Positions 11,573 to 14,116 of a DNA stretch of 38,816 bases are shown one piece after another (position 1 is the stretch's first letter; each line of letters begins with the position of its first letter). Position numbers and translations under genes: made by a program. Source of the stretch: Acidobacteriota bacterium (GTDB taxonomy: Bacteria; Acidobacteriota; Thermoanaerobaculia; Multivoradales; J023); assembly GCA_003697015.1 (NCBI GenBank), contig RFGL01000151.1, forward strand, positions 1 through 38,816, read 5' to 3'. Below the pieces are notes generated by a model. That model had not been told where the DNA came from, did no database searches, and saw only the letters and a program-made list of their open reading frames with translations.

Positions 11573-12664
11573 CTAGGCCGACCCCACCTGGGCGCGCTGG
11601 CGCAGCATGTGGTCGGCGAGGGTGATGGCGACCATGGCCTCGGCCATGGGCACGAAGCGCGGCACCAGGCACGGGTCGTGGCGGCCCTTGGTGACGATGG
11701 TGGTGGGGCGGCCGTCGCGGGTGACGGTCGGCTGCTCGCGCGGTAGGGAGCTGGTCGGCTTGACCGCACAGCGCAGGACGATCGGCATGCCGGTGGAGAT
11801 GCCGCCGAGCATGCCACCGTGGCGGTTGGAGGCGGTGAGGATGCGGCCGTCGCGGCTGATGAACGCATCGTTGTTCTCGCTGCCGCGGGCGGCGACGACG
11901 CCGAAGCCGGCACCGTATTCAACCCCGAGCACCGCCGGCAGGCTGAAGAGGGCCTTGGCGAGATCGGCCTTGAGCTTGTCGAAGACCGGCTCCCCCCACC
12001 CCGCCGGCACCCCGCTGGCGACGATGGTCGCCGCGCCGCCGATCGAGTCGCGCTCGGCGCGCAGCTTCTCGATCAGGGCGATCATGCGGTCGGCGGCCTC
12101 CGGGTCGGGGCAGCGCACGATCGACGCCTCGACCTGGTCGAGGGTCACCGCCGCCGGGTCGTCGACCCGCGCGACCACGTCCCCCACCCGATCGACGTAG
12201 CCGACGATCCGCACCCCGTGGGCCTCGGCCAGAAGCTTCTTGGCCACCGCCCCCGCCGCCACCCGCACGTTGGTCTCGCGGGCGCTCGAACGGCCGCCGC
12301 CGCGGTAGTCGCGGAAGCCGTACTTGGCGTCGAAGCTGTAGTCGGCGTGCCCCGGCCGGTACGCGTCCTTGATCGCCGAGTAGTCGCGCGGCCGCTGGTC
12401 GTGGCTCTCGATCAGGATGGCGATCGAGGTGCCGGTGGTCCTGCCCTCGAAGACCCCGGAGAGGATGCGCGGCGCATCCGCCTCGCGACGCTGAGTGGTG
12501 ATCCTCGACTGCCCCGGTCGCCGTCGCGCCAGGTCGGGCAGCAGGTCGTCTTCCGACAGCTCCAGCCCCGGCGGCACGCCGTCGATGATCACCACGTTCC
12601 CCGGCCCGTGGCTCTCGCCGGCGGTGGTGATGCGGAACAGCTGGCCGAAAGAATTGCCCGGCAT
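11573..12664 (-). CDS. aroC: Chorismate synthase
   Basis: AroC eliminates phosphate from EPSP to give chorismate, the last shikimate step, using reduced FMN as a cofactor. The 363-residue product shows the family signatures in order: GESHGP near 17, [16 protein letters not shown] at 49-64, [18 protein letters not shown] around 125, [17 protein letters not shown], and a C-terminal [17 protein letters not shown]. This is a full-length bacterial type enzyme. The ATG at 12664 matches the conserved start ([18 protein letters not shown]), though without a strong ribosome site. It stands alone: upstream on its strand is the repeat cluster and then ada; downstream it converges with the hydrolase gene. 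Confidence 0.97.
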
Positions 12665-12702
12665 GCGGGGAATCTATCAAGCGCAGCATCTCCCGCTGCC
12701 GA

Positions 12703-12850
12703 TCAGGTGCCAGGGTTTTCGCAACTCGTTTCGAATGAGCGAGTTAGAACTGCCATCCGCGGTGCCACCCTTTTCCCGACCGCGGGTGCCAACCGCGGGT
12801 GCCACCCTTTTTTCGCGCGGCGACGACGCGGGCCGGGACACAGCAGGCGG
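12703..12850. repeat. Repeat cluster, copy A: duplicated 3' end of ada
   Basis: This 148-bp segment between aroC and ada starts with a 45-bp unit (12703-12747) that recurs exactly at 12903-12947, 200 bp away. The unit contains an inverted repeat AACTCG / CGAGTT around TTCGAA. It continues with sequence nearly identical to the last ~90 bp of ada (GGTGCCACCC followed by a T run, then GCGCGGCGACGACGCGGG, up to CAGCAGGCGG), plus a 16-bp insertion and small indels that break the reading frame. Two further copies of the 5' half (TCAGGTGCCAGGGTT...) start at 12852 and 12880. It is therefore a non-coding, decayed duplicate of the neighbouring gene end. Confidence 0.85.
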
Positions 12851-12902
12851 GTCAGGTGCCAGGGTTGTCGCCAGGCAGGTCAGGTGCCAGGGTTTTCGCA
12901 GG

Positions 12903-13037
12903 TCAGGTGCCAGGGTTTTCGCAACTCGTTTCGAATGAGCGAGTTAGGCGTCGTCATCCGCGGTGCCTCCCTTTTTCCCGTGGGTGCCACCCTTTTTTCG
13001 CGCGGCGACGACGCGGGCCTCGCGACGCAGCAGGCGG
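12903..13037. repeat. Repeat cluster, copy B: overlaps the ada 3' end
   Basis: The intact counterpart of copy A. The 45-bp unit (12903-12947) contains the ada stop codon (TTA on the plus strand at 12944-12946), and the rest is the ada C-terminal coding sequence. Two GGGTGCCACCC-T-run modules (about 12961 and 12981) encode, on the minus strand, the two KKGGT units of the Ada tail. Similar GGTGCCACCCTTTTT modules are reminiscent of REP-like elements spread by RAYT transposases, but no such transposase is in the window. Confidence 0.8.
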
Positions 13038-14116
13038 CGCTTGCGTTCTTCGCCCCAGCGGTAGCCGCCGGCTTTGCCGTCGGCGCGGACGACGCGGTGG
13101 CAGGGGACGAGGAGGGCGGTGGGATTGCTGGCGACGGCGCGGGCGACGGCGCGGGCGGCGCGCGGGCGGCCGAGGGCGGCGGCGATCTCGCCGTAGGTGC
13201 GCCGCTCGCCGTAGGGGATCCGGCGCAGGGCCTGCCACACCCGTTCCTGGAAGGCGGTGGCGCGCACGTCGAGCGGCAGGGACGGCTCGCCGGTCCCCTC
13301 GAGGTGGGCGAGGATCGCGGCCACCAGGGCGGTGAGCTCGCCGTCGTCGCGGCGGACGTCGGCGCGCGGATATTCGCGGCGGAGGGACGACTCGAGGGCG
13401 TCGTCGTCGTCTCCCAGGCTGACGGCGCAGATGCCGCGCGAGGTGGCGGCGACCAGCACCCGGCCCAAGGGGGTGGCGGCGGTGGCGAAGCGGATGAGCA
13501 TGCCTTCTCCTCCCCGGCGGTAGGTCGCCGGCGTCATGCCGAGGCGGGCGTCGGCCTGCTCGTAGAGCTGGCTGGCCGAGCCGTAGCCGGCGGCGAAGCC
13601 CGCCTCCAGCACCCCCTCCCCGGCCCGCAGGCGGGTGCGCAGGCGCGCCGCCCTCCGGGCCTCGACGTAGGCCCGGGGGGAGACGCCGAAGCGGCGTTTG
13701 AAGGTGCGTTGGAGGTGGAAGGGGCTCAGGTGGGCGATCGCCGCCAGACGCTCGAGGGTGACGGTCTCGTCGAGGTGGGCGTCGAGGTAGCGGCGGGCGC
13801 GCTCCACCGCGCGCAGCGCAGCGGACGGGCCGTCGTCGTGCGGCCGGCAACGCTTGCAGGGGCGGAAGCCGGCGGCCGCCGCCTCTTCGGCGCCGGCGAA
13901 GAAGCGTACGTTGGCGCGCTTCGGCCGGCGCGAGGCGCAGCCCGGGCGGCAGAAGACGCCGGTCGTCACCACCGCGTAGACGAAGGCGCCGTCGCGCGAG
14001 GCGTCGCGGCCGGCCACCGCCGCCCAGGCCTCCTCCTTATCGATGGTCGGGGCGCTCATCCTCGCGTCCTGCTGCTCCTGCCGGCGACGTCCGACGCCGT
14101 TCGTGATCGTGCTCAT
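12944..14116 (-). CDS. ada: Ada: bifunctional DNA methyltransferase and transcription activator
   Basis: Ada repairs methylphosphotriesters and O6-methylguanine and activates the adaptive response to alkylation. All three parts are present in the 390-residue product. The zinc methylphosphotriester domain has C56, C60, C87 and C90 (VVTTGVFCRPGC, GFRPCKRC). An AraC-type HTH lies at about 100-200 (LAAIAHLSPFHLQRTFKRRF). The OGT domain has nucleophile C339 in LLVPCHRVVR and the GGYRWG motif at 350-355. The ATG at 14116 has GGGAGG nine bases upstream; an in-frame ATG at 14059 (371 residues) fits the conserved N-terminus equally well. The last ~18 residues (RKKGGTHGKKGGTADDDA) are not part of the family and are encoded by the adjacent repeat, as is the stop codon. 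It is divergent from the methyltransferase gene across 270 bp in which no clear site was seen. Confidence 0.95.
   Translation of the reverse strand: MSTITNGVGRRRQEQQDARMSAPTIDKEEAWAAVAGRDASRDGAFVYAVVTTGVFCRPGCASRRPKRANVRFFAGAEEAAAAGFRPCKRCRPHDDGPSAALRAVERARRYLDAHLDETVTLERLAAIAHLSPFHLQRTFKRRFGVSPRAYVEARRAARLRTRLRAGEGVLEAGFAAGYGSASQLYEQADARLGMTPATYRRGGEGMLIRFATAATPLGRVLVAATSRGICAVSLGDDDDALESSLRREYPRADVRRDDGELTALVAAILAHLEGTGEPSLPLDVRATAFQERVWQALRRIPYGERRTYGEIAAALGRPRAARAVARAVASNPTALLVPCHRVVRADGKAGGYRWGEERKRRLLRREARVVAARKKGGTHGKKGGTADDDA

Follow-up and report, generated by a model that had tools for sequence, protein, structure and literature searches.

The repeat block between ada and aroC in the genome of an Acidobacteriota bacterium is in all likelihood a dispersed, non-autonomous repeat of the REP/TIR kind, which was probably mobilised by a HuH tyrosine transposase encoded on another contig of the same genome, inserted at the 3′ end of ada and subsequently underwent tandem duplication. 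The block supplies the end of the Ada protein together with its stop codon, its units recur across the genome, and three further genes carry segments encoded by the same repeat. Unless a contig is named, coordinates refer to the window, by which we mean the whole stretch of DNA that was analysed (38,816 nucleotides). The features of the window that matter here are as follows.

11573–12664, minus strand: aroC, encoding chorismate synthase, intact, downstream of the repeat block (TIGR00033, 436.9 bits)
12696–12850, plus strand: decayed tandem duplicate, comprising the long unit, short modules and the final ~40 bp of ada (91% identity to 12896–13037)
12761–12774, plus strand: short module copy GGTGCCACCCTTTT within the duplicate
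12798–12812, plus strand: short module copy GGTGCCACCCTTTTT within the duplicate
12850–12902, plus strand: two more partial units, GGTCAGGTGCCAGGGTT, head to tail (starts at 12850 and 12878)
12903–12947, plus strand: ~45-bp long unit CAGGTGCCAGGGTTTTCGCAACTCGTTTCGAATGAGCGAGTTAG, which holds the ada stop codon; its head and register are common to dozens of genomic copies
12944–12997, minus strand: Ada tail KKGGTHGKKGGTADDDA and TAA stop, from the translation; no counterpart in the Ada proteins of relatives
12944–14059, minus strand: ada, open reading frame for a bifunctional Ada of 371 aa (NCBIfam NF011964)
12962–12976, plus strand: short module with one substitution, GGTGCCTCCCTTTTT; its minus-strand reading is KKGGT
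12983–12997, plus strand: short module GGTGCCACCCTTTTT; its minus-strand reading is KKGGT

The repeat block and the end of ada

Judged by NCBIfam and Pfam profiles, the Ada encoded here is of the normal bifunctional type; it scores 399.8 bits against NF011964 (cut-off 345), and the match ends at residue 349. Its translated C-terminus reads ...RREARVVAARKKGGTHGKKGGTADDDA, also written ...LLRREARVVAARKKGGTHGKKGGTADDDA, and the 17 terminal residues are encoded by the repeat. They include two KKGGT units (codons AAA AAG GGT/GGA GGC ACC), which are the plus-strand module GGTGCC(A/T)CCCTTTTT read in reverse, and the TAA at 12944–12946 falls inside the long unit. An earlier note, made from the sequence alone, had claimed that this tail is without counterpart and that the stop codon lies in a 45-bp repeat unit, and both statements hold. 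Across the 40 genomes searched, KKGGT was found in none of the order's Ada homologues or Ada-like proteins read; the Ada proteins of relatives share a conserved YRWG..RK..LL, followed by short, variable and unrelated ends. Because the closest Ada homologues are only ~57–63% identical and none offers an empty site, we infer both the insertion event and the native stop of ada; the genome from the same genus lacks the exact repeat and is not close in Ada identity either.

The second, decayed copy that the note had placed downstream is also real. The long unit recurs at 12698–12747 with 96% identity over 50 nt, and when 12696–12850 is aligned with 12896–13037, 126 of 139 columns are identical, with a gap of 16 bases, two further small gaps and a score of 179, compared with −38 for the best shuffle. 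The duplicated block comprises about 40 bp of the native end of ada together with the tail, and it has the appearance of a simple tandem duplication of local origin, not a second insertion. Within the window, the modules are confined to this block, with 4 and 4 matches against 0.06 and 0.08 expected.

Genome-wide dispersal of the repeat

The repeat is not restricted to the ada locus, as the mobile or self-copying element suggested in the note would require. In the source genome (5.34 Mb in 500 contigs), with reversed patterns as the control, there are 37 exact matches to GGTGCCACCCTTTTT and 73 matches to GGTGCCASSNTYTTCGC, with no control match to either, and 41 matches to GGTGCCANNNTTTTC, with one. 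In regions fetched from this genome, at least 120 core copies fall into 39 distinct clusters on many contigs. The head of the repeat is AGGTGCCA; a long form of ~45 nt reads approximately CAGGTGCCASSSTYTTCGCAAGTCGTTTCGAATCAGCGACTTACG, and a short form reads AGGTGCCACCCTTTTTTC. Clusters are head-to-tail arrays in which extra partial AGGTGCC heads are common, and at two sites (C21 and C348) the arrays have a period of 19–21 bp.

Those short-period arrays, and the true tandem duplication at ada, are what would be expected if the block were a local tandem repeat only, produced by slippage at the end of ada, with the other loci alike by coincidence or ancestry and no mobile element involved. The same head and downstream sequence nevertheless recur across 39 clusters distributed over many contigs, with no control match, and repeats are linked to the ends of a transposase gene, described below. 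A purely local origin is very unlikely and already contradicted by the genome-wide copies; the local duplication step alone survives.

Repeats are found at or close to some twenty contig ends, which, in an assembly of 500 contigs, could be taken to suggest an artefact of fragmented assembly or of binning. True dispersed repeats themselves cause contig breaks, however, and would explain those at many of the repeat's sites. Furthermore, the ada block stands between intact genes in the interior of a contig of 38.8 kb, and substitutions and gaps set its two copies apart. We consider an artefact extremely improbable.

Many clusters are found no farther than about 50 bp from the stop of a gene, and two terminator-like sites are present on the plus strand of the block, both of which would suit repeats that are mainly functional RNA or DNA elements, such as terminators or mRNA stabilisers, under selection at gene ends. 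The two sites compare with 0.9 expected, which is not clearly above chance, and their strand is antisense to ada, whereas other copies of the repeat occur inside coding regions and ahead of genes. No conserved hairpin was found in 63 long copies either, as the best candidate stem pairs no better than when its 3′ arm is shuffled among copies; individual copies show weak folding (z −1.6 to +1.3), and a search of Rfam gave no match. As a main explanation, such a function is highly unlikely, and we retain the reading of the repeats as dispersed mobile elements.

The exact short module was found in one distant genome among 58 relatives, with 3 copies; in the genomes of other species it gave three single scattered matches and no second rich genome, and a search of phages and plasmids returned no similar DNA. 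Separately, several contig ends (C169, C229, C300, C475 and C476) show a longer conserved version (GGTGCCACCGTCTTCGCAAGTCRTTTATTCACAGACGAATACGYC..GCCGACTCAATCCCAAGAACCACCGACGCGCCGCCC), which resembles a MITE-sized element of at least 100 bp.

Other proteins that carry the repeat

The note had proposed looking for proteins with KKGGT repeats at their ends. Our scan covered open reading frames that enter clusters and have coding-like GC content by codon position, a filter that misses weakly biased or short genes, and it gave three genes besides ada with repeat-encoded segments, all in the KKGGT frame and all with segments absent from relatives. One of the three ends in KKGGT. Together with ada, the genome holds four cases of a repeat turned protein, one each as tail, internal loop, domain linker and replaced C-terminus.

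The replaced C-terminus is that of a radical-SAM/SPASM protein (contig C30), which ends ...AVRATRKKGGT, whereas most relatives have a conserved LLPVV/LLPI end; by this comparison, the repeat has taken the place of the conserved C-terminus. The linker is split over two contigs. On C21, the frame of a PHP protein (TIGR00375-like, below cut-off), which we take to be EndoQ-like, leaves the contig in (RREKGGT)n, and C247 opens with (RREKGGT)n, which reads in frame into a UvrD helicase. In relatives, PHP and UvrD form one open reading frame (1057–1181 aa in most) with an unrelated linker, and it is natural to read the two contigs as a single putative PHP-[KGGT]n-UvrD repair fusion, which the assembler would have split at the array. 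The loop belongs to a MenE on contig C95 (TIGR01923-like, 291 bits, cut-off 330), in which GKKGGTSTEKNGGTSTGGALTEKKGGTP stands in the N-terminal part, and relatives are without it. The same gene contains an exact match to the module (C95:5601–5615, part of an exact 17-nt GGTGCCACCCTTTTTTC at C95:5601–5617) ~0.8 kb from the repeat insert, which we do not count as a repeat copy: it covers the conserved RGATLF(S) motif, where relatives have RGATLF or RGPTL, and may be a coincidence or a conversion event.

Two of the four decorated proteins (Ada and PHP-UvrD) are repair proteins, and all four use the hydrophilic KKGGT frame, although the short module is free of stops in all six frames. Both facts would fit a KKGGT tail under selection for a function in Ada, for instance as a basic extension that contacts DNA, with recruitment of the segments in repair proteins. 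Against this, the repeat also decorates MenE and the radical-SAM enzyme, purifying selection that removes less soluble frames can account for the frame bias, and, since the C-terminus of Ada is variable among relatives, neutral tolerance suffices for the tail. We regard a selected tail as most improbable and favour one that would be tolerated rather than useful; the hydrophilic character of KKGGT, in a module without stops, would explain why it is the sole frame in the four cases. The four genes lend themselves to asking how protein extensions arise from intergenic parasites and whether the choice of frame is selected.

The candidate transposase and related repeat systems

Two Y1_Tnp genes are present in the genome, and one of them, on contig C235 (C235:25950–26882, 311 aa), is flanked by AAGGTGCCACCCTTTTTTTC on one side and by a cluster of AAAAAGGGTGGCACC in inverted orientation on the other. 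It is the single transposase gene of its kind in this genome; its product carries the HuH motif SNHYH and an invariant Tyr, scores around the Pfam cut-off, and had no relative in a sequence search of the PDB. The RAYT-type transposase that the note had suggested seeking was found in part: with 47.1 bits (E 2e-12) against the RAYT model NCBIfam NF047646, below the cut-off of 80, the protein is a REP-type (RAYT-like) relative flanked by the same repeat, but not a member by that model. Its position among the repeats makes this HuH tyrosine transposase relative the probable enzyme that mobilises them. The other gene, on contig C254 (150 aa), encodes an IS200-type TnpA (NF033573, 85.6 bits) and was rejected as the agent: it has a different repeat array of its own, of GGTAGCCGGTGGTTTTAACCACCGGC and CGCCCGGGGTTGAA..CCCCGGGCTACCTTGGTGCGTCCC units, and no GGTGCCA module arrays were seen beside it.

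The linkage extends through the order. Homologues of the C235 protein are present in 44 of 59 genomes, frequently in multiple copies, and are often flanked by their own AGGTGCCA-headed repeats, likewise inverted. At 24 homologous loci, GGTGCCA[GC] lies upstream in plus orientation 16 times and reversed twice (11 loci versus 2), and downstream it is inverted in 9 cases versus 1; its density is 2.4 per kb upstream and 1.1 per kb downstream, compared with 0.1 per kb in the farther flanks. The sequence that follows the head is lineage-specific (GGCGATTTG, GCCGATTCG and CCCTTTTT). Of the 59 genomes, 20 contain dispersed copies of a sister repeat, AGGTGCCAGSCGAWTY, at up to 36 copies and with no control match. 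All 20 belong to the group of 44 that encode the transposase; in the other 15, which lack it, the sister repeat is not dispersed. This association is supportive but phylogenetically confounded, as 14 of these 15 genomes belong to one genus.

By analogy with TnpA-REP (PMC3733652, PMC6006769), single-stranded repeat DNA would be the substrate of the HuH enzyme, with copies settling in permissive, chiefly intergenic sites and those in or near genes persisting where reading stays open. At ada, the arrival of copies at the 3′ end would have displaced or deleted the native stop; as the frame through the repeat is open, translation would run on as KKGGT units to the TAA of the long unit. Slippage or unequal recombination would later have duplicated the block in tandem, together with the last ~40 bp of ada, with the outer copy decaying since. 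Of the tail-adding mobile element envisaged in the note, mobility is retained as probable, given the distribution of copies, whereas a tail-adding function is not: tails arise as a side effect when copies insert at the ends of genes.

Among described systems, the repeat is best filed beside the TIRYT/TIRtron repeats. TIRtrons have RAYT-like genes, inverted repeats without REP structure and, in some genomes, dispersed relatives (PMC3733652), and they probably correspond to TnpAY1 subclass 2.1 (PMC6006769). Common to both are a RAYT-like gene between inverted non-REP repeats and, in some, dispersed families with grouped copies. The heads differ: most described TIRs have the motif GGGGWSAS (PMC3733652), whereas the head here is AGGTGCCA[CG], and this genome and many relatives have GGTGCCA[CG] and not GGGGWSAS (GGTGCCAS matches it at 6 of 8 positions). 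Subclass 2.1 has the key motifs NHVH or NH[YF]H and YIELNP or Y[IV]HLNP, with a median length of 238 aa (PMC6006769), compared with 311 aa for the C235 protein. The HuH motif fits, but in the homologues aligned (25 loci), which share it, the invariant Tyr lies mostly in RLxYxLxxGxKExLV, not Y..(L)NP, and this Y-x-L-x-x-G-x-K-E is unlike any row of Table 1 of PMC6006769.

REP/RAYT systems (REPtrons, BIMEs and REPINs) are alike in their high-copy short repeats, mostly intergenic near gene 3′ ends, in the linked Y1 HuH gene, and in copies that lie within genes or supply stop codons. A REP element forms a hairpin with a GTAG- or GT[AG]G-type tetranucleotide as a 5′ tag at its foot, whereas the repeat here has no GTAG/GGAG-type tag (there is no GTAG column) and no conserved stem-loop. 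REP insertion at gene ends that produces tails, intragenic REPs, REP-supplied stop codons and a leaning towards repair genes have all been described already (PMC3733652). In-frame extra protein segments also arise from Rickettsia palindromic elements (RPE) and from the intragenic REPs of Opitutus terrae and others, with repair genes (uvrA, uvrB and recB) among the targets, as here (PMC3733652). RPE-like decoration, as in-frame repeat segments, is found here in the conserved Ada, MenE, PHP-UvrD and radical-SAM proteins, but the repeat differs in sequence, is non-palindromic and is always read in the KKGGT frame in the cases seen.

Set against PMC3733652, PMC6006769 and the open-access literature, in a comparison short of a full survey, three aspects look new: the order-wide, hairpin-less AGGTGCCA superfamily, the unlisted Tyr motif of the transposase and the same-frame decoration of four proteins. 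They connect dispersed repeats with a candidate clade of transposases outside the published subclasses. A broader generalization, which we put forward only tentatively, is that an order-wide, undescribed branch of Y1 HuH enzymes, marked by RLxYxLxxGxKExLV and accompanied by lineage-specific, hairpin-less repeats of this superfamily, may copy sequence that is free of stops in six frames and is repeatedly fixed as KKGGT tails and linkers, including in DNA-repair proteins.

In the genomes of three relatives (G005, G025 and G038), the RAYT-like gene is multi-copy, with 31 to 39 matches each, and in this respect resembles an active IS more closely than it does the single, domesticated RAYT that is usual.
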